From Saksenaea vasiformis B4078 (lineage: Eukaryota; Mucoromycota; Mucoromycetes; Mucorales; Saksenaeaceae): DNA of 64,000 nt. The stretch lies in contig JNDT01001921.1 in NCBI GenBank assembly GCA_000697055.1, positions 1 through 64,000 of the forward strand, given 5' to 3'. Shown one piece after another: positions 29,027-64,000 of this stretch. A program made the translations under genes and the position numbers. Position 1 is the first letter of the stretch. Each line of letters opens with the position of its first letter. The notes beneath the pieces are model-generated. The model made no database searches and had not been told where the DNA came from. It saw only the letters and a list, made by a program, of their open reading frames with translations.

Positions 29027-32000
29027 CTAAATTTCATAACAAAAACTACCTATTGTGTCGGCCAACCTTTTGTGCTGTGCTCTTTCTTGAGCCGGGGGTG
29101 CAAACGGTTCCAGTGCTTTATGGTTGTCCGAAAGCATTCTGCCAGCACCTGCGATACCAATGTTCAGTGCGGCATTTTCGTCACGTCCTCTCGTGTTGTA
29201 TCCTGCTTGGAATGCAACACAGCTAGGGTTATTACATCGCACAGCGCCATTGTTCGTCACAAGTCGCTCGCCGCGCCACTTTTTTGGATGAGTTAAGCGT
29301 TTGTAACAAAACGGACATGTTCGGCTGGTTGCGAACTCGTTTGTCAGTGCAACGCAGGAGTATCGCTGGTGGCGCTCCCTCAGCCACCTCCTACCCCAGT
29401 GGTGATAGCCTTTCATTAGCGAGCCAACACCTGTTCCAGATAGACCGATACAACATATAAGATGGATAAACTTTTTCATCCCAATCGCTTCGGTGAACCG
29501 CCTTTCGTTAGATGCAATGCGGTCGTATAGCTTTCTTTTCATTAGCCAGCACGTTTTTCGTTGCTTCCGCGCTTGATTTGTTTGGTAAAATTTTTTCAAC
29601 GTTTGTCTCGTACCATGTTGCAAATTTCTTACTGCCATGACACCAGCAGAACTCCAGACGCTCGTTAGGCTGTTTTTTGCGAGGAAATCTTTCGCCTGCA
29701 GCACTGCCTGGCCTTCTTCTGTTCTCTTTTTTCGCGCCACAATCTTACGTTGCACTCGCTTAACAAAGGTTTCCTCCGCCAGGAATCCACTAGTTATCTC
29801 AAAAGGTCTGGGGATCTTCAGTTCTTCTCTTGTAGGTAATGTGTGTGGTAATACGTTCTCTTGTGATTTTTTGTACCAGTACAGATGATCTTGTAGGCTC
29901 CTCATGCTCAGCGAAACCGTCGTTGATAGTGTCCTTAACCCGTAGTCTGTCCCACAGAACACAAGTTCGTGTTCACTGTGAGGTATCAGCTGAGATACTT
30001 CGATATTCTCCGCAAGATCTTCTACTTGCATCTTTTCATATGATATCTTCGTTGGCTTTAGTTTTTTATTTGGTGAGTTGTTCGCGTCCGCCTGTAAAGA
30101 GGTCAACACCATGTTACACCGATAATATCAATACCATTAAGGCAGCATGTCTTGCTCTCCTCGTTTGTGCAGTTTCACTGTCATTAGATGCAATTTGTCC
30201 CCATATTTGACGACGCCTCGTTTTTAGTTGCTGTCTACGGGCTATCATTTCTTTCCGTCGCAGCATTGGCAAGCCAGGCTTACACAGGCCTTTGTTAACG
30301 TTCCTGAACTCTTTGTTTAGGTTGTTACTTTCTCTGCGTAGCCGTTTGGAACGATCGACTAGTTGGTCAATTCTGCTATCATATCGACGGATCGCTTCAT
30401 CATCATTGTCTGAGGGGCGCTTTCTCTTATTCGATGTGGAGACAGAAGCTGAAGATTGTCACCGTATCAAGTAAAACGACCATCGTTGCTTACCTTTTTT
30501 CTGTTTTTTTTTAGCTTGCGTCTCTTCTCGTATTGTGACACAAGAGGATTTCTGCCTTCACTGATAACTATGCCGTCGAGAATTGCTAAACCCTCACTGG
30601 TAACTGTGATTCTATTATTAAACGTTAGACCGTGTGTTTTACAAAAGTTTCTGATGATGCTGTAATTAAAAAACGCCTGTAAAACGGTACTGCGATCTTG
30701 TTGTGCTTCACGCGCGGTAGACACGAGAGTATTATTTGCCGAACGTACGTCGAAACCGCGAAATTCATTGCTGGGAATAACTGAACACATCATTTCGTAC
30801 AAACTCGTCGATGTGAGAGGCAGTGCATGGATATCTCCAGCACCGATTATTGGGGATATCTCCCTATAAAAGTGATTGTAACCAACGGCGCGAAATATGT
30901 AGTTTGATCAAGTCAAAAATGGCAAAACCACGCTAATATGTTTGTCTACTTTGGCATTCCCGGTGCGCTTCGGAACATACGGTAGTAGTACATTGAATAC
31001 TTTGCAAAACGTTGAAGTTTCTTTGGCCGAAAATTCTATTGTTGGAAACTTTTTCTCCAGATCTCGATTTTTCAGTTCCTTCGTTTCGTCTGGATTCACC
31101 AACGCTTTTTTTAAGACTAACTTTATAACGTTGATGCGCCTCGCAGAGGTCTCTTTTTGGGAGACATGTTCCTTCGACTCGTACTCGGACTCATACTCGG
31201 TCTCGTACTCGGGCTCAGACTCGGACCAACGGTCAGAATCATACTCAGACTTATCATCAGGTTCGTCTGCTCGGGTTTTGTATTCTCTTAAGCTATTCAA
31301 AATGTTATGACTAGTGGTTTGGCATTGTACATACTGCGTTTCTTCAACAGTCTTCTTATGTTCCAATTCCGAGATTTTACGGCGGATTCTTCTGGCCTGT
31401 ACTGCTGTGCCTTTGCTCCTCAATATCTTGTTCAATTTTTTTTCTTGGTGTCGCATCTTTGCTTTCCATGATTTATGGATTGCCGACAAACTTTTTCTAT
31501 AAGTACAATTAAGCGACGTGCCTTCTTTCCATGTTATTACCTTTTCGGTTTCTTCTTCTTTTCGCGTGCTGATTCGGCTGCAGACTGCCTCCTAGAGAAC
31601 CATTTTTGCTCGCGTTGGGGCCCCAAGTGCAGACGCAATAAAAGACGGATCAGCCTTTCCAGCGTCCGAAAACCGATGTTGCCATTCCAGATGTTTACTG
31701 TACAAGTAGCCATCTGACGAACACATATGTTCGCCGTTTGTGAGCACTTCTCGGGGATGGGACTCATATTAGCATCATGTTCAGGTAACAGATTGTCCCA
31801 AAGTTTATGCTTTTTCTTGGATCTGTCCGACGTATTTGAGAACATCCTTGTCACAATGTATTCGAGATGCCTTTGGGTAAACATGTCAACAAGGTCATCT
31901 GCATCGCCTCTGGACCGGAGGTCATGTTGGATGAGATAGTCACGGGTGGCCTTGGTTTAACATTCTGATACGAATTGCAGGAACCTCTCCTGCCCAAGCC

Positions 32001-54196: not shown

Positions 54197-55387
54197 TTAT
54201 TTCAAGGGTGCTTTCACATCCATGACACGACCCTTTTGCTTTGCCCATGCTGTGCAAGCGCGTGTTTGCTGGTCACATAAGGTCAGGAGTACTTTACGTT
54301 GGACTAGCTCTGCTACCGATTCCCAGTCATCGATCCGGTGGCATTCTTTCATCTCAAACACCGACATGCTGGAACAGTAACGAACGAATGCGCGAATTGC
54401 TTGGTTGGTCAGACGAGGACAGTTGTTGACCGAAATGCGTTCAAGGCCTACGTTACGATGCTTTGCTATCATGATCATGCATTCGTCGTCAATATCGCAG
54501 CCAGCCAAGCCCAGCACGGCCACCTGTGTATACGTCGCAATGAGACCGATCGATTGAATCGTGATTTTTTCTCCGTCGCGCACGCGACCCACGTTGAGAT
54601 GCTGCAGACGAGGACAGCACGTTGCAATGGCTGCAATGGATACATCAGAAATCATGCCGCAAGCCCGTACATCCAGATGCTCTAGGCCGCGGCAGTGCTG
54701 CGCTGCTCTCAGAATGGCGTCGTCCGTGACACGGACGCACCCTGCCAAGGAAAGGTAGGTGAGTCTCCCGAAGCTAATAAAACCTTCGAGGGACGCGTCT
54801 GTCACCCAATCGCAAATATACATTTCCAGCCGCTCTAGTTTTGGCATACATCTACCAAGGGCCACCAGTGGCTCATTGATTTTGGTTTCCTTCACTTTCC
54901 GTAGCGTCAGAGATCGCACAGCATGACGATAATTGTCGACCCTTCCAAATTTGGGATGATTGATGCAGTAGTTCGGTTTGTGTTGTCTGTTTACTCCGGC
55001 AAAGTAACCAATGCTGTTGCAAGTCTGGGGTATCGGTGCGGCTACAGCAAGTGCAGCTGCAGCTGCAGCTGTCGTGTACAATCTTGACATCGGCGACGTG
55101 TTCGCGATAACAGCAACGAATTGCAGAAAGGCATCATAGTCGGTCTTCGTGTCACCGAACAGGACATGGCGCCATATCAATCGTTGCGCACAGTCATGCC
55201 ACAAATGGTTCACGAACAAGCACGGGTGGAGACAAGTATATAGGTTCTTTTTGCGACAAGCTTTATCACTAGGCGGAATGGGGGTGGTGAGGTACGACAG
55301 AATATGAGCAACGATCTCGGGCAGCCGTACTGCAAGATGGGATGAGGTACTGTACTGTCCGTGCTGCTTTTTGAACAGGTACCGCAT
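54197..55387 (-). CDS. F-box/leucine-rich repeat protein (AMN1-like)
   Basis: Single exon, 396 residues from the ATG at 55387; the frame is open further 5' but has no earlier ATG. An F-box-like region lies at about residues 20-75 (VRLPEIVAHILSYL ... CLFVNHLWHDCAQRLIWRHVLF). An alanine stretch follows, and then about eight cysteine-containing LRRs (LTYLSLAGCVRVTDDAIL, LEHLDVRACGMISDVSI, LERISVNNCPRLTNQAI). This is the layout of Amn1/Grr1-class substrate receptors of SCF ubiquitin ligases; in yeast Amn1 blocks the mitotic exit network and promotes cell separation. Which substrate this one binds is unknown. It ends convergently 32 bp from proteasome subunit beta6. Confidence 0.85.
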   Translation of the reverse strand: MRYLFKKQHGQYSTSSHLAVRLPEIVAHILSYLTTPIPPSDKACRKKNLYTCLHPCLFVNHLWHDCAQRLIWRHVLFGDTKTDYDAFLQFVAVIANTSPMSRLYTTAAAAAALAVAAPIPQTCNSIGYFAGVNRQHKPNYCINHPKFGRVDNYRHAVRSLTLRKVKETKINEPLVALGRCMPKLERLEMYICDWVTDASLEGFISFGRLTYLSLAGCVRVTDDAILRAAQHCRGLEHLDVRACGMISDVSIAAIATCCPRLQHLNVGRVRDGEKITIQSIGLIATYTQVAVLGLAGCDIDDECMIMIAKHRNVGLERISVNNCPRLTNQAIRAFVRYCSSMSVFEMKECHRIDDWESVAELVQRKVLLTLCDQQTRACTAWAKQKGRVMDVKAPLK

Positions 55388-55661
55388 AAAGGAAAGAAAA
55401 GAACAAAAATGATCATGACTGACGAACGGAGGTTTTTTTTCCAACTTGTGGTGTTGGTCGCGGTGGGCATTCTTTAAATGCAAAGTGAATCACATCCAAC
55501 CGTCAACCCTATCTTATCACATGAATGACAAAAGATTCTGCCTTTGCTAGCTGTCTACTACAGCACTTTGCCAGGGGTCGGAGGGATAATTTTGTAGAAC
55601 ACGATCTCTCTATCATCTCCCGCTCTTTATTATTGTTGTTATTTTTTTTTCTCTTTTCTTT

Positions 55662-57966
55662 TTACATCTTAGGTCGATAAAGCTGCCGTTCTTCGAACCG
55701 AATAGGTACGATCATTAACTCACGAATCTTTTGAATTTGTTCCGCCGTCAGTTTACACTCGTTTCGCACGTAGTCCTCAATGGATCCATATATCTCCTTC
55801 ACCAACTGGATCGTTTCCTTCATGGCAAGGTATCTAGTATTATGATGGTCTTAGACCGCTGCATCACCATAGCTACATGGAACACTTACGGAGCAGACAT
55901 CACCATCTTCATGTCATCCACTGTAACACCTAACAGCTGCGCCTTGTGCTCTGATTCTTGTTCGGGTTCTATCCGTGTCGTGAATGAAAGAGTTACCATT
56001 TCGTCTGACCTTGTCAAAATGCATACTTACCCCAATAGCCAAGGTTTGTGAGGGCATATTCATGCGCAATAACTTCGTCATCCACACCGCACAATCCCAG
56101 TAGCAACATCCCAAATAAACCTGTACGATCCTTGCCGGCTGTGCAATGCACGATCAGTGATTTCTTTGAATCAACAGGATGATTTTCTAACAAATGCAAA
56201 AATATTTTGCGATACTGCGGACTCCCTTTCTCGAGCATCACTTTGTAGACTGTTGTAAGGTTCATTAGCCAGCTGGAAAATGAATAAATAGCTCTTCCCA
56301 ACCTTTTGGAAACCCTGTCGGTCCTTCAAAATAACCTTTCCAACGCATTGCCAAAGCTGCTGGCGAGTAATCTGTCTTGCTGAACACCGCCGTATGATAC
56401 CGTGTTAAACCGGGTATTTCTCTTCCATAACAAGCTTGAGATAAAAATGTGTTGAACAACATAGTCTGTACTTACGGCATCACGCCTTGCCTTTCAATCT
56501 GTTATAATGTATGAGAATGCTTTTCCTTTTTCTTTTTTTTTTTTTTTCAAACGTGGTATGGACAACTTGCCTCAGGGTCAGATCGGAAATCAAAAGCTGC
56601 GATAACATTGAGCTGTTTCAATGTTTGGATCCCTTTAGCCGTGATATCCGTCAAACTGTATGCTCACATGAGTTCAATTCTTTTTCTCTCAAATTCAAGC
56701 CTTCTTGACACTTACTGCCCGCATCTGAAGATTACTCTTTCTCTGACGTAACCGCTGCCATCCTTCAAAGGCCAGCCGCCTAAATCGCGGAAGTTCTTGA
56801 CACCTTCAACATCGATCCATCGTGGAATACACACGCTAACATGTTGTCCCATAGCCATAGCCTTTTCATATGCGTCCTGTTCATGCGTTACAAAATGATC
56901 TACGATCGCTTTCACGATTTCTTCCGTTTTTTCTGTAAAGGTATGATCCGCATCGGGTATCAGTTGTAGTGTATGATTGGAAATCGTATTGGCATAAACG
57001 GCGGCATGTTGTGGAGGAACAATCTAACGGGCAAATCGTTCATTGACTTTTTCATCAAGATAACGCCGGCTTACCGTATCGCTCAGGCCATGACATGTCA
57101 AAACACAGGTTGTTTTCGGCATGCGTCGCACTTTGCTAAAGATCAGATCATGTTTTATAGAAACAACAAATAACACAACGTACCGTGAGAGTTGTCCCAT
57201 GATGTAAACTTATCTGTTTCATCTGGCGTCACATCGATGCACCCGTTTTTATCACGTTTGCCTATGCTCCTTTCCAAAGATCCCTAGATGCGATTTTTTT
57301 TTTTCACTGAATGAGCGTGAGGCTCATGCTGCTGCATTTGTACCTGGCGACTAAAAGCATGATCGAGTCGTGCTACATAATCATTCACTTTTTTGACACT
57401 CATCGAGTACCAACCGCCGACATTAACGCAGTGTGACAATGGGATTTCGCATGTTGTGGCATATTTCAACGCTGCAAGAGCACCTAGGGACAACATAAAA
57501 AGGCAACATGAGACGTGGATCAGGCTAGGGAGAGTGTCCAATTTACCATGTGAATGGCCAATAACCGCAAATATAATGTATCCTTTTTCTCGGAAATGCT
57601 GTGCAACAGTGTGCAAATCTTCGGCGTCTTCCTGCGAACCATCCAGACTAAATATTGCGCCATCGGATGGATTGCATAGTAACTTACTGCCATGCTGGCA
57701 TAGCTTGCTCTGCCTTCACTCTCTCCACGACCACGAAAATCAAATCGAAAACTAGAGAATGGCAGTTCTTTTGCTAACTGCGGTTGGTATATAGCGTTCT
57801 TATGCCCTGCGGGAAGAATGAATGAATGAAAGCACGACACAATCAAAGAAGCATTACCAAACAGTCCGTGAGCTATGAGAACTAGCCGTTGTGTCTCGTC
57901 TTCCTTTTTCTCAAGAATGCCCACAATGCTCTCTCCACGATCGGTTTGAATACGAATCGTCGTCAT
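55662..57966 (-). CDS. Alpha/beta-hydrolase fused to a tyrosine phosphatase
   Basis: Thirteen exons give 533 residues: 57966-57858, 57806-57688, 57631-57547, 57483-57344, 57283-57184, 57130-57075, 57023-56716, 56655-56571, 56498-56476, 56421-56303, 56249-56031, 55956-55890, 55833-55662. Residues 1 to ~220 are an alpha/beta-hydrolase: IAHGLFG oxyanion region, nucleophile in GHSHG, aspartate in HGLSDTIVP and histidine in DADHTF. In the same exon as that histidine begins a Y_phosphatase3-type domain: IPRWIDVEGVKNFRDLGG, FDFRSDPE, the P-loop HCTAGKDRTG, and a C-terminal IEDYVRNECKLTAEQIQKIR. The intron at 56570-56499 starts GCAAGT (GC-AG). Substrates unknown. The splice path around 56303-56498 was chosen to keep phase and is the least certain part. 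Confidence 0.83.
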
Positions 57967-58156
57967 TGTGGAAAACCAGCAAAAAGAAATGAAAGAAAGT
58001 CAAAAAGTTTGTACTCAGATTCTTGTTCCTGCGGGCTGGCAGTGTATGCCTGGACCAATTTGAGCGAATGACAAGGCTCCAAAATTTATACTAAATAGGA
58101 AATTGCGTACCTCCTTTTTCTTTTTGCTTTTCTAATTTCATAATAAAGTCCACGCA

Positions 58157-59249
58157 ATGCCACTACAAAACATCACCAACACTCCTCGTAAACCCTATGC
58201 TGAAGTTTCGGTCGACGAGCGCAACCAGATCTTCGGGATGAGGCTTGCGGGAATGTCCTATGGTCAAATCGCCAAGCAGAAAAATCTTCTTCGTTCTACA
58301 GTTAGTGCGATTATAAAACCATGGAAAAAAAAAAATGGATCGTCTGCGTCTAAACTGCGTCCCGGAAGACCAAAGAAGATATCCGAACGAGCCTCGCGTC
58401 TCATTGCTTCAAACATTCACCGAGAACCAAGAAATCCTTTGGCGTATCATCTTGCCTTGGCTCAGTGTGATTCGTTCACCGTGTCTCTCAACACATTTCG
58501 TAAGGAGGTTCACGCGCTTGGTTTTTTTTTTTTCACGTCGTCCAGTTACTAGACCGAAGTTAACGCCACGACATAAGGAAAAATGTTTGCAATGGGCAAC
58601 CGAGCACCTCCATTGGACTACTGAACAATGGGCCAAGGTGATGTGGTCTGATGAGTCTCGATTCTGCGTCGAAGGCAATGATGGTAGGCAGCACGTGTTG
58701 AGAAAAGATGGAGAAGGACTTGAGGAACGTCACATCACTCAAGTAACCAAGTATGGTGGCGGTTCAGTGATGATATGGGCAGCTTTCACTACTGCCGGTG
58801 TTGGCCCAATTCGGCTCGTCACCGGCAACATGAACCAGGATGAGTATGTGAACACGCTGTCAGAGACCTTCTGTACGTACCTTCGGGAGATGGTTGCTGA
58901 TGGTTAAGAGGTCGAATACGTACTTCAGCAGGATGGCGACAGCTCCCGCGCTGGCGCCTACGCATCGTGGTGGAAAAAGATGAACAAGGTACCCACCTTG
59001 GGGAAGTGGCCCGCTCAAAGTCCCCATCTGAATCTAATAGAGCACCTCTGGGATGAAGTGGAGCGATGCCTTATGCCCAGAAGACATAGCATTGTGAATG
59101 CAAAGCAGTTGGGGCAGGCATTGCTTGAGAGTGGGTCAAGTTCCCCGCTGAAATATGTAGAAACTTGGTGGAATCCATGCCCAGAAGATGTCAGGCTGCT
59201 ATGGATGCCCATGGTGGGCATACCCCATATTAAACATTATATTTTGTGA
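58157..59249 (+). pseudogene. Tc1/mariner-type transposase, frameshifted
   Basis: An N-terminal paired-like DNA-binding part (RNQIFGMRLAGMSYGQIA, STVSAIIKPWKKK) and a GRPKK AT-hook-like linker are followed by a poly-T run at 58521-58532, where the frame shifts by one. The catalytic part resumes with RPVTRPKLTPRHK, MWSDESRF (first D) and GGGSVMIWAAF. A TAA at 58905 and another shift follow, then VLQQDGDSS (second D), WPAQSPHLNLIEHLWDE (E). The D-to-E spacing is 35 by hand count. All three catalytic residues survive but not in one frame, so the copy is probably dead; slippage in the T run could be a sequencing error. Terminal inverted repeats were not identified. Confidence 0.8.
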
Positions 59250-60427
59250 GTGTGGAATGAATATATACATGTTTGGCTACGATCATATATAGTTTGAGCG
59301 CTTTGGCGTTAATACTTTATGAGTACTGGAGCGTAAGATTTGCTTGAGAAATATCATGTTGCTGAGTTTCACCAAGTTGTACGGGTATTTTTTGGAGGGG
59401 GAGTGTATCATAGAGTAGCATACATAATGAATAGTGCTCGGCAATGGGCTCCAATCAAAGACAGAAATTCAACGATATCTGGCAACTTCGTCTACAAGGT
59501 TTACACTCACTATTAATATGTATCGTGGCTGAAATTGTGCAAAATATACATCAACAATGAGAGGAAAGACAAACTTATGGAAGAAATCCATCAGATAGAA
59601 ATCGCTTTAAGTAATGAAACTCTGTCAAGAGCGAAGGTTTCCCATCATACGCAGATGATACAGTGCACCCGTCAATTTCAACCTGTGGGATCCGCAAAAC
59701 CATGTAACGGCGGACACTGTACTTTGAACGAGACAGGACAATATCAAGGAAGATTGAAATATACACGTTTACCAGATCTTTATAAATATGAAAGGACTTT
59801 TGGATATCACAACCAAATGCTTTTTTAACAACGCATAATCAGTATTCTGTTAACTTAACATCGCTATATTTTGTCTGGTCTGTCTACCTTTTGGCTCCAA
59901 GCCTATCTATTCGACGTATTAAAGAAAGGAAAGGAAGCAGGCCTCTAGGGCAGATGATCGGTCCACATGCCAGAGGATCATAAAAAGGATGCCTCCTTAT
60001 CGTCCTACAGATGCGGTTGTGAAAGCTGTAGAAAGGCGTTTTTTGGTCACAATTGCAAAATCCTGGACTGATTGCCCTTATACTTGTTCCAAGAGTTCCT
60101 GGCAATTATATTTGAACATAGCGGTTTTATCAGTATGTCTGGTGTACGAGACATGAGTGTCATCACTCGGAAATGTAGATGTTCACCCAGGTACCGATAG
60201 GCCAACTTCATTTTGCTCATAAAAAGGGCACAGATCAGAGATCTAGCGTCATTCCTATTTCATGTGCCTTTTTGACCTGACCACATTTTGCTTAAAAGAC
60301 TCACCGAACACGGAGGAGCAAGTGTATTTGTGGATGAACAGCCGAAAGAAACAGCAGTCCTACGAGCTCAGATATGATCCCATCAAGCATTTGGTAACAA
60401 TTCTCTCTTTCTTTTTAATAATCAAAC
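59250..60427. other. Interval between transposase and Fanzor gene
   Basis: Contains a plus-strand open frame at 59544-59828 without a proper ATG start (ends in RLKYTRLPDLYKYERTFGYHN) of unknown origin. Otherwise the 5' flank of the Fanzor gene. No repeats pairing with the far side could be tested because the window ends. Confidence 0.35.
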
Positions 60428-63400
60428 ATGGACAGACAACGCCCAGAACTTGAAGAGCCCCCACCCCGCAGAAGACGATACGGGTATCAGAACAGCCCCA
60501 TCTCTCAATTACCTGGTCGCGACTATTCTTTTGTACGAAAATTGAAGCTTTGTAATTTCCTGCAGGACGGTTACAAGCCGCTTAAAGTACTGTATTATGA
60601 TACTCCCGTCTAAACCCTTCAAAGATATTAAACACATATTGGTAGGGTGTTTTGCGTTCAGTGGCAGAACAGTATGCGAACGCTTGTCAGTGTACAATGT
60701 ACCTTGTCAATTTGCACATCCATCGCTGGATCGAAGGCCAGTTCGAGACTTTTCCTCCTGTACAAAATGAATCGTTTTTTACCGCCGCGTTCAAAATGGT
60801 CCTGAGCCGAGATACCGGCACGAACATTCGAGTATCCTTTGTATGTAATGATACTATGAAGGCATCAGCATAGACTAAGTCTGTTCCCCTGATCAATAGT
60901 CCAACTACCGCTGGTGTGTTGATCTACGACAGACTTTCGAAAGTTTTTTTGATACTTGCAGAATGGACCCAGCGACGGGTGAAGGTATTTACGTAAATTT
61001 ATAAGGCTAAATACACTTATAATTTCTGCAGTAAACTACGAGCTTCCCAGGTTAACCGGCATTCTAAAAGAATTGGCGCCGTCCTTTGCAGGGAAAATAT
61101 CTGCTAGTAAGTGGAACCATTTGAGAAGAAAAAAACACAAACCTTTGCGTATCTATAGACACCTGTATGCATATTACATCGAATATCGACACATATATGA
61201 AGCGAACATTTGTCGCATTTCTGGACAGGTTGTTTACAGATTACCCCCAGAATCAACAACAAAGTACAAAGAGCTTAGGTATTATTTCGCTGCTTAGCGC
61301 ACCTGGTTTACACTGTTTTTGTTATATCACTATAATTCTAATTTGTAGCATCCCGATGTGTCCGAGGTGTATTAGCACAAGATACTTTTGACCGTACCGC
61401 CTGGACAACATTAAGCAACGATGCAATCACCGAGCTTGAAATTTTTTATATGTATGATATTGATGCGATTGTCAATCTATTTCCTTCCCTTGTTTACTTA
61501 ACGTTCTCTGCTTTCTAGAGAGTTCCAGTATGTTTATCAGGAACAGTTCAACGATCTCGATGTAACTGGAGATCTGAGTGACGATGAAAAACGTCGGTTA
61601 TTTCCTTCTATACTGCGTTTCTCAGCGCTGATGCTGTGTCAAACCAATGAACTTAACGGTAAAGGCTGGACTCTTCTTCCTCTGGCCAAAAGCCAGATAG
61701 GTGAGCTAAGACCAACAATACGTCTGAACCGTAATCCGAACTAAACAATTGTGCCAGGCTACGTCCCTGTAACTGGGAAAGTACTTTACTGGGCACTTCA
61801 AGACATTCCCCGCAACCTGCCGGCCCACCTAGAAGTAAGTATCTATAGAGACAAGCGTATGATAACTAAAGAAAAATTGACATCCTTGTACTAGGGCCCA
61901 TTGCAAAATTTTCAGAGCTTCAACAATGCCCTCAAGGACATTGCATATCGGGAACAGCTTTGGGAGGCCATTTTCTGCCTCGATAGGGTTCTGCCTCGCC
62001 GTCGCCGGGCACAAGGTTTGGTTATATTCAGCTGCATGGAGATAATGTCCTTACACTTGTTCATATCAGGCATAAACAATGATGCACTACCAGAGGTAGA
62101 GTTTGACTACGGCTTTGAGACAGACGGTGTTATGGTGGCGGTAAGATTCAAATCTCGAAAACCCAACCAAGGTCAGTCCCAGTCTTCGTTATACCGTGAA
62201 ACACGTTAACGGAAAGGTTGTATTTCAGCGTCATATCCGTCGTCTCAGAGAGACTTTCAGTTCCTTCCCCGGAATAGGGACTTCTCTAATTTGCAGCATG
62301 GCATTTATCATTTAAAGAAGGAACCTACGGGATTAACAGCTGCACGCGACTTAGACCCTGAGATAACCCGAATAGTGGGAATTGATCCAGGTATTTTTTT
62401 TTTCATATAAGGAACTCAACAGAAGCTATATATATATATATATATATCTTAGGGATTCGTTCTCTTGTAACTGCTGTGGATACTGCAGACGACCTACACG
62501 ATCAAGAGGCGAGAGAAAACCACACATTCGGCGTCACAAACGACTATTATCAGTAAGATATCAAAACCCTGGGTGTAGCCTGCGAAATAACTACAAAAAT
62601 TTTTAGATCAAGCTCGAAATTCAATTGGAGTCTTCAGATAGAGCGGAAAAATCGTTCAATCGCCAACATGCAAGAGGTGTACGATCGTTTGTCGGAACAC
62701 CCAAGCACAGCTTCATCTGTTGAAGGATTCCAACAATTTCTCATGGCACAATTTGCGGAACAACGCAGGTAACTGCAAAATATTCTCGTCCACATATAAT
62801 CATATTAAATGAACTCTTCCCAGGATGGACGAGTACAACCGTCACTATAGACACAGAGAAAGGCGTGCTTTACAAGCATCTTCCAGAAGTATGACCATGG
62901 ACATTATTTCAGACCAGGTTGGAGGATTTTACCCCAACACAACACTGGTAAGTATTTGATTGCTTGCTGTTCGTTTATTAATTGCGCATCAATGTCTTAG
63001 CCTCCTATCCAGAACATACAAAAAACGAGCAAAAGGTCGCGGCAACGCAGACGTCGGCAGCACCGTCGGAATCAGAACAGCAGACGTGACCAGCGTCGAG
63101 TCCTTATAGCATATGGTGATGCTGATCTGCACACTGGAGGTTACAAGACGTATGCTCCCCTTCCAGTAAAGGTGAGCGTGTTTAATTTATCTTACCCAGA
63201 GAATCCTATTAATATTTACTATTCATGTGTAGACCTTTCGTAAGGTTCTAGCACAGCGATGCCCAGTCATATGCGTTGACGAGTACAAAACCAGCAAAGT
63301 ATGCAGCAGATGTCATCACGACACAGTTGATTTCCGTGACTATAACATGCAGCTATGCAATCATCGGTATGTTTGAGAAACAAATGGGCACAGTGAAAAG

Positions 63401-63839
63401 CTGACTCATATGAATTAATCCCTAGTAAAAAGTATATCAGGCGTCGGCATCATAAGCACAAACGTCAACATTGTTTAGGTGACGACGAACAGATTCTGCA
63501 TCTTAGCAGTGAATGCCCCGATAGACGTCGACCTGGTATGGTTTAGTGTCGCTTTGATACGTTTTTCTTTAACACAGGAATAGCTCGCAACAATTACAGA
63601 AATATTGTCTATCCTATCCGACTGTGCCCTCAGTGCGCGTATGATAGACGAGGAGTCAGAACATCTCTAGTAAGTCGTACTGCTTGATTTGATACAACAA
63701 TTCTTAACTATTTGATTAGTTCTGGAATAGAGATGTTAATGCCGGAAGGAACATTCGTGATGTCTTGGTTCGCTACATCGAATCCGGATGTCAATTGACA
63801 TCTCGCCCGGCAGCACTGTCCAGGACAGTAAGGCAGTAA
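60428..63839 (+). CDS. Fanzor RNA-guided nuclease, apparently intact, 19 exons
   Basis: Exons 60428-60586, 60646-60840, 60900-60984, 61032-61106, 61159-61278, 61349-61451, 61519-61700, 61758-61834, 61895-62015, 62070-62171, 62229-62390, 62453-62552, 62607-62768, 62824-62947, 63001-63171, 63233-63366, 63426-63535, 63578-63669, 63720-63839 splice without a phase break into 797 residues. RuvC-I VGIDPGIRSLVTA (D459), an upstream ETDGVMVAVRF strand, RuvC-II CVDEYKTSK (E663), zinc ribbon CSRC (670/673) and CPQC (744/747), RuvC-III FWNRDVNAGRN (D763). A basic stretch (RSRQRRRRQHRRNQ) precedes RuvC-II. Family members are TnpB-like endonucleases guided by an omega RNA from the 3' flank. A different last exon is possible (see the entry for 63828-63973). 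Confidence 0.85.
62427..62447. repeat. (TA)n microsatellite in a Fanzor intron
   Basis: About ten TA units just upstream of the acceptor of the intron that splits the RuvC-I glycine codon (62391-62452). It may affect splicing of the catalytic exon. Confidence 0.7.
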
Positions 63840-63973
63840 GGAACTGCTCTCTCGTCACTTCGTTTGACATGGTAAACATTGAATTACGTCATACAATTCA
63901 CGTGCTAACAAGACTGTAGGGCTCCAGGCACCGTCCGAGAGCCTCCTGCGTTGACCTCAAATGCGTGGGATGA
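63828..63973 (+). other. Alternative last intron and exon of the Fanzor gene
   Basis: Instead of stopping at TAA 63837, the transcript could use the donor GTAAGG at 63828 and the acceptor GACTGTAG ending at 63919, with a textbook CTAAC branch point 15 bases before. Exon 63920-63973 would add GSRHRPRASCVDLKCVG. Both ends are possible; the branch point favours splicing. Confidence 0.4.
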
Positions 63974-64000
63974 ATCATTTCCACCCAATGAAATGCCTTT

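Follow-up and report, generated by a model that had tools for sequence, protein, structure and literature searches.

The window analysed here (the whole stretch of 64,000 nucleotides from Saksenaea vasiformis B4078, contig JNDT01001921.1) carries a Fanzor1-type gene on its forward strand, at 60428-63839. Fanzors are eukaryotic TnpB-like RNA-guided nucleases, relatives of the CRISPR nucleases. As the original prediction held, 19 exons join in frame, giving 2394 nt and 797 residues with no internal stops. Exons 1-7 lie at 60428-60586, 60646-60840, 60900-60984, 61032-61106, 61159-61278, 61349-61451 and 61519-61700, exons 8-13 at 61758-61834, 61895-62015, 62070-62171, 62229-62390, 62453-62552 and 62607-62768, and exons 14-19 at 62824-62947, 63001-63171, 63233-63366, 63426-63535, 63578-63669 and 63720-63839 (all on the forward strand, from the gene model and paralogs). 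The introns are 42-70 nt long and all 18 are GT-AG; retention would introduce an in-frame stop in 14 of them, and GC content is 0.466 in the exons versus 0.341 in the introns. In the studied copy, intron 9 has no stop and its length is divisible by three, so that it could pass as an exon. However, it is 53 nt long with the flanking frame kept in three other copies (L034, L033 and L036; the donor in L033 is AT), and is hence a genuine intron.

We projected this exon map onto ten full-length copies of the gene, including the studied copy (C431). Four are fully open with 18/18 GT-AG introns (C431, L034, L036 and L040), two are open with one (C585) or two (L033) altered donors, and frameshifts or stops occur in the other four (C577, C478, C643a and L037). 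Two members of a subfamily with about 65% DNA identity (the B subfamily; L045 and L039) are also open on the same map, with 794 aa, while L042 and L046 of this subfamily have indels and the intermediate L041 has both indels and stops. The borders of intron 17 as projected are off in the B subfamily and L041, and some donors there are GC; projected onto L027 and C666a, two copies that are partial or diverged, the map gives broken frames. Since the same introns are found in other open copies, including those of the 65% identical subfamily, they are older than the insertion of the studied copy.

The protein contains the motifs expected of a Fanzor. The RuvC1 aspartate lies in a DPG motif (D459-P460-G461, within IDPG), which is invariant in C431, L045 and a Rhizomucor pusillus protein described below. 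The RuvC2 glutamate is E663 of VDEYKTS, in an E-x6-CxxC arrangement, and the zinc ribbon (C670xxC673 and C744xxC747) is followed by the RuvC3 aspartate D763 of RDVNAG. There is also a TDG motif (T390-D391-G392), which appears to correspond to that of the Fanzor1 WED domain. All three RuvC acids and both CxxC pairs of the original prediction are thus in place, with the refinement that the second acid occupies the alternative (rearranged) Fanzor position and that 70 residues separate the two CxxC pairs. The Fanzor fingerprint given by Yoon et al. (2023, PMC10711439) consists of a DPG motif, an alternative glutamate set six residues ahead of a CxxC, a further CxxC and, in Fanzor1, TDG. The spacing in the studied protein is wider than in the search pattern of that paper, however: 70 residues between the CxxC pairs (12-18 in the pattern), 15 from the second CxxC to D763 (4-8) and 201 from DPG to E663 (120-160). 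Exon 16 (VDEYKTSKVCSRC; 63233-63366) encodes the rearranged glutamate and the first CxxC, and 63233-63376 matches PF07282 (TNB) with 26.7 bits. For the protein, the same profile matches residues 653-691 with 26.4 bits, marginal against a cut-off of 26.3. Judged by these motifs, the gene is a Fanzor1-type, TnpB-like gene for a predicted RNA-guided nuclease, in agreement with its original assignment.

Close relatives are few. An NCBIfam search of the protein returned no families, a PDB sequence search for a solved Fanzor gave 0 matches, and a second such search gave only MazF3 (E 2.3); this distance from the solved Fanzors broadens the pool of eukaryotic nucleases available for study. The only relative found by protein search is Rhizomucor pusillus VTP01DRAFT_10036 (P0001), which is 30% identical in the alignment and shares TDG, IDPG and VDEYKTS. 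In this protein (530 aa), nothing corresponds to the initial ~170 residues of the studied one, to its second CxxC or to its RDVNAG end, possibly owing to an incomplete gene prediction. A second protein search found no relative among 8000 candidates, and a search of viral contigs found none. Within the same genome, the zinc/RuvC end of a member of another TNB family (L008) resembles that of the studied protein (E 6e-5), and the two share VDEYxTSxVCSxC and WxRDxNAxxNI. At least 137 PF07282 matches across the genome indicate that further Fanzor families are also present.

Selection has maintained the protein. Between the studied copy and L034, substitutions at the three codon positions number 99/72/276. 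Compared with the nine other full-length copies, the studied copy has a dN of 0.100-0.131 and a dS of 0.70-0.95, and exons are more similar than introns in 9/9 pairs. The dN/dS ratio is 0.12-0.15 in every one of these pairs, demonstrating purifying selection across the full-length copies; together with the four fully open copies, this substantiates the earlier claim that the frame across the introns is beyond chance. Ratios in other pairs reach 0.45 (C577 with C478), which fits recently decaying copies. We also counted changes on the studied copy's own branch, using only codons where three reference copies agree; among these 164 codons, a sample biased towards slow codons, there were 33 synonymous and 7 amino-acid changes (dN/dS ~0.05).

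These data bear on whether the studied gene is a dead, decaying copy with a frame left open by luck. Four of the ten full-length copies are indeed broken, and a mariner element sits in the left arm of the surrounding unit (described below). On the other hand, none of the 18 intron borders is changed, there is no stop, the excess of synonymous changes is strong, and it is the terminal branches of the broken copies L037 and C577 that show relaxed ratios (0.27 and 0.64). We therefore regard a dead copy as highly improbable.

Around the gene extends a 5.91-kb unit (58034-63943), whose ends repeat each other briefly and imperfectly and which is flanked by a 7-bp duplication of the target site. Hence 60428-63839, as originally given, correctly delimits the gene but not the unit. 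The duplication (TCCTGCG) occurs at 58027-58033, and the identical 7-mer follows directly after the right end at 63944-63950; the chance that two random positions in the window share a 7-mer is 9.6e-5. The left end (58034-58073, forward strand, GGCTGGCAGTGTATGCCTGG...) is B-type, and over its 40 bp is 97.5% identical to that of L045. Further inwards, 59808-60125 (forward strand) is 65-70% identical to the A-type left arm. The right end is at 63919-63943 (forward strand) and includes a terminal hairpin, GGCU..AGCC, pairing 63920-63923 with 63940-63943.

Aligned copies end together, with A-type units running from CGGCTCGCCTGCGGTGTCTGTGG on the left to ...GGTCACGGAGCC on the right, and B-type units from GGCTGGCAGTGTATGCC... 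to ...GTCTGTGAGCC. Among nine units examined at both flanks, the duplication is a perfect 8 bp in five (L045, L039, L033, L040 and L046, although the left tip of L046 is altered), 7 bp in the studied copy and not clear in three (L036, L037 and L042). Among 5000 shuffles per case, the match between left and right ends was equalled by 17 for A-type, 133 for the studied copy and 2739 for B-type. The ends are thus inverted repeats in A-type units, weakly so in the studied copy, and not beyond chance in B-type units.

The family is dispersed throughout the 38.7-Mb genome, with roughly 40 related loci by our own rough grouping of the exon matches listed. Allowing up to three mismatches, the A left end matches the genome 29 times, the A right end 41 times and the B left end 10 times, while reversed control patterns of all three gave 0 matches each. 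A 156-bp query from the 3' end gave 41 matches; since one locus accounts for two of these in pieces, they represent 40 A-like right ends. In one case (C5), a left and a right end lie 2.0 kb apart on one strand; as this is too short for the 3.4-kb gene, C5 is likely a nuclease-less unit. Copies can also lie close together: C632:104609-107829 contains two stacked partial copies in the same orientation according to exon matches (L018 and L020). At C133:35340-35600 (L054), an A-type unit ends 6 nt before a B-type left end, into which its guide region would run. We considered guided insertion as a reading of this arrangement and rejected it, as it is a single case that C277 did not repeat.

A host-like gene structure had been taken to suggest either domestication or long residence in the genome. 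If the studied copy were domesticated, it would now be immobile and kept by host selection, and its open frame, complete set of splice sites and low own-branch dN/dS (from the 164 slow-biased codons) would fit. It is also the sole member of its branch among the ten full-length copies, with the dS of 0.70-0.95 to the other nine noted above. However, the low ratio is a signal of the mobile family, since the branch of L040, another transposon copy, gives 0.059. The studied copy has also kept both unit ends, its 7-bp duplication and the conserved 3' structure; other open copies share its introns, and about 40 copies are found among the matches listed. Domestication is thus very unlikely, and reading the host-like structure as a pointer to it is not supported. 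Long residence in fungi is plausible at the level of the family.

We found no transposase in the unit, and movement is probably brought about by a transposase acting in trans. Several candidates were considered. MULE transposases have 48 matches in the genome, but none lies within 15 kb of the A left, A right or B left end matches listed, the nearest being ~19 kb away (C248). Together with the 8-bp duplications in five of nine units, this argues against a MuDR-type Fanzor1 element. Elsewhere in the genome, other TNB families do lie less than 400 bp from opposite-strand MULE matches (C599:2383-3099 and C531:67875-68591), as would fit the MuDR-associated Fanzors that Bao and Jurka reported. IS1595/Merlin was rejected, as the family search of the genome gave none while the control search matched in one genome. 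A search of the genome for KDZ transposases also gave none, as did its controls anywhere, making it uninformative; an 8-bp duplication would fit Zisupton as described in PMC12730594.

The left arm contains a Tc1/mariner element (58079-59407, forward strand) with matches to HTH_SB, HTH_Tnp_Tc3_2 and DDE_3, each below cut-off, and a coding sequence that is broken into three open frames. Counterparts of this span occur at C564, C600 and C233 (87% identity each) and at C286 (84%). With copies of its own elsewhere, it is a nested insertion separate from the Fanzor unit proper, and we rejected it as the carrier.

B-type units have an upstream open frame matching DUF6729 (PF20499; 42.9 bits in L045). 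We grouped ten Fanzor loci among the matches listed as B-like (C422, C475, C362, C416, C527, C437, C532, C578, C277 and C639), and in six of these (C422, C527, C437, C532, C578 and C277) DUF6729 lies 0.6-1.3 kb upstream on the same strand. Likewise, six of ten B left ends have a DUF6729 match less than about 1 kb inside them (C133, C329, C657, C476, C661 and C422), that in C329 being below cut-off. The studied copy is absent from the genome's DUF6729 matches, and its upstream arm is interrupted by the mariner. A literature search found no paper using the name DUF6729. One could imagine a two-gene system, in which a DUF6729 zinc-ribbon protein recognises the ends and the intron-dense Fanzor carries its guide-RNA scaffold in the last exon, across the stop codon. 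We consider this unlikely, though if true, one transcript would serve as spliced nuclease mRNA and then, through 3' cutting, as guide RNA, tying the supply of guides to nuclease expression.

The 3' end of the gene is a probable scaffold for such a guide RNA (reRNA or omegaRNA). The predicted scaffold covers 63790-63943 (forward strand), comprising the last 50 nt of the coding sequence and a 104-nt 3' UTR; its 5' limit was chosen for the alignment. Of 35 tails, 29 have a recognisable right end, and in L026, C585, C577, C478, L038 and C666a it is not reached or absent. One alignment (A1) contains 25 tails, omitting L017, L015, L014 and L011 as near-duplicates, and another (A2) contains the last ~27 nt of 17 tails. 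From these tails we picked three stems by eye, all on the forward strand. Stem I (63815-63829, ACUGUC-CAG-GACAGU) lies within the coding sequence and is paired in 99.3% of cells, with one pair being A-U in 18 rows and G-C in 6. Stem II (63833-63847, GCAGU..ACUGC) spans the stop codon (63837-63839) and is paired in 85.3%, its innermost pair being absent in 19/24 rows. Stem III (63854-63868, GUCA..UGAC) is paired in 98.9%, with one compensatory change (L027).

This structure is conserved and covaries. Across the 16 pairs of the three stems, 93.9% of cells are paired, and both sides have changed in three pairs (8 cells). No shuffle of 500 reached the observed number of paired cells, of both-side-changed cells or the covariation score, while 12 of 500 reached the number of pairs with both-side changes and 480 of 500 the number of further pair types; as the copies are related, these counts are not probabilities. 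Slid versions of the stems are only 21-45% paired, as is partly to be expected for stems picked from these very sequences. RNAalifold alone returns the same three stems from A1, with a covariation term of only -0.5 kcal/mol. It did not return the terminal hairpin from A1, which misaligns that end between subfamilies. In A2 this hairpin is paired in 98.2% of cells (14 distinct rows, one both-side change), with weak covariation (39/500 shuffles reach the observed value), and its conservation may reflect a role as transposon end, not as RNA. Folded singly, the studied 154 nt are no more stable than shuffles (z +0.21), nor is L036 (+0.67), while L045 gives -2.34; in these folds, C431 forms all three stems, L036 forms stems II and III, and L045 forms stems I and II.

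The coding part of this region also varies little at synonymous sites. The synonymous difference is 0.056 in the last ten codons versus 0.230 in the gene (22 of 788 ten-codon windows are as low), and codons 786-794 have no synonymous differences at all (6 of 789 windows, the stretch having been picked post hoc). Over the last 20 codons, the difference is unexceptional (84 of 778 windows as low). An Rfam search of 63600-64000 gave only one match, far below its gathering score, and with the E-value limit set at 1, the RNA model matched none of the other TNB loci L001-L008.

Taken as a whole, the region suggests an reRNA scaffold that ends at 63943 and is at most ~155 nt long, and fits the earlier proposal of a guide RNA encoded at the 3' flank. 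In the insect-virus Fanzor1 elements described in PMC10711439, reRNAs extend ~15 nt past the duplication. By analogy with that account, the predicted guide would start at or just after the right duplication, near 63944-63965. All 29 right flanks examined were distinct, potentially giving 29 guides.

The conserved 3' end could instead be a transposase-binding site only, accompanying a TnpB-like protein without RNA-guided cleavage. Transposition constrains unit ends in any case, and both the weak single-sequence folds and the weakly covarying terminal hairpin would be understandable on such grounds. Yet stems I-III covary and are set back 75-128 nt from the right end, and stem I falls in coding sequence. 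The left end also showed no inverted counterpart of the stems in our comparison, which counts for little since the short end repeats were missed by it too. A binding site only is, in our view, quite unlikely.

Our preferred reading, which we hold with a probability of about 80%, is that this is a Fanzor1-type nuclease gene on a DNA transposon with short imperfect end repeats, 8-bp duplications and a guide taken from the flank. In this scheme, the spliced mRNA would be translated into the nuclease, and the 3' end of the transcript (the last coding bases, the stop codon, the 3' UTR and the right end) would provide the reRNA scaffold. Transcription beyond 63943 would append a guide that copies the sequence at the insertion site. 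The complex could then cut DNA matching the flank, such as an empty allele, and repair would copy the element back, keeping it in the population. As the element moves as DNA, its introns are retained.

Fanzor1 genes were previously described in DNA transposons of Rhizopus, Mucor and Phycomyces (ROr, MCi and PBl; Bao and Jurka, 2013, PMC3627910). According to that description, these likewise encode a TnpB-like protein, some with inverted ends and target duplications and without transposase. The MuDR-like Fanzor1 elements reported there have 9-bp duplications, in contrast to 8 bp here. We compared these elements by their description, and the family studied here could be related to one of them. 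With Fanzor1 known from Mucorales transposons since 2013, the family is new, but its kind is not. Nor would we call intron richness as such new, as Jiang and colleagues reportedly discussed introns in Fanzors in 2023 (in Science Advances). The word does not occur in the main text of PMC3627910, and our literature search for Fanzors and spliceosomal introns led to a paper on algal giant viruses. A search for Fanzor together with Apophysomyces found nothing.

Spu-1 of Spizellomyces punctatus, the element of SpuFz1, is similar in being multi-copy with inverted ends and no transposase between them, as presented by Saito et al. (2023, PMC10432273), and some of its loci likewise have the RNA end but no protein gene. 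However, its locus is ~2.1 kb with a single open reading frame, whereas the units here are 4.5-5.9 kb and the gene has 19 exons. The insect-virus Fanzor1 (SfAV; Yoon et al., 2023, PMC10711439) is also non-autonomous, with DPG and the alternative glutamate, and its reported three-stem reRNA includes the transposon end and target duplication, like the scaffold predicted here. It belongs to a different host and element, and its reRNA was sequenced whereas ours is only predicted. From its ends and duplications, the carrier of the studied gene appears to be a eukaryotic transposon other than IS607.

Open and broken copies with distinct flanks form a natural experiment on how transposons benefit from Fanzors: whether guides are aimed at unoccupied insertion sites, and whether nuclease-less copies depend on the others. 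If the scaffold overlaps the stop codon, the conflict between splicing, translation and guide processing also becomes directly testable.

The window contains some further features of note. A second Fanzor/TnpB-like frame lies on the reverse strand at 29027-30112 (361 aa, uninterrupted, with the motifs EFATSRTCPFC and RDENAALNI); its PF07282 match (16.9 bits) is below cut-off. For a neighbouring F-box/LRR gene at 54197-55483 (reverse strand), identity to two Apophysomyces proteins is 74% and 79%, and its next best named matches are from other Mucorales. By this single gene, the host falls within the Mucorales, closest to Apophysomyces. In the region 57964-58034, the left end of the unit is ~67 bp above the likely start codon (57966) of a minus-strand gene, meaning that the insertion would sit in the promoter region of that gene. 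Its first residues are MTTIRIQTDRGESIVGILEKKEDETQRLVLIAHGLFG, which by eye resemble an alpha/beta hydrolase.
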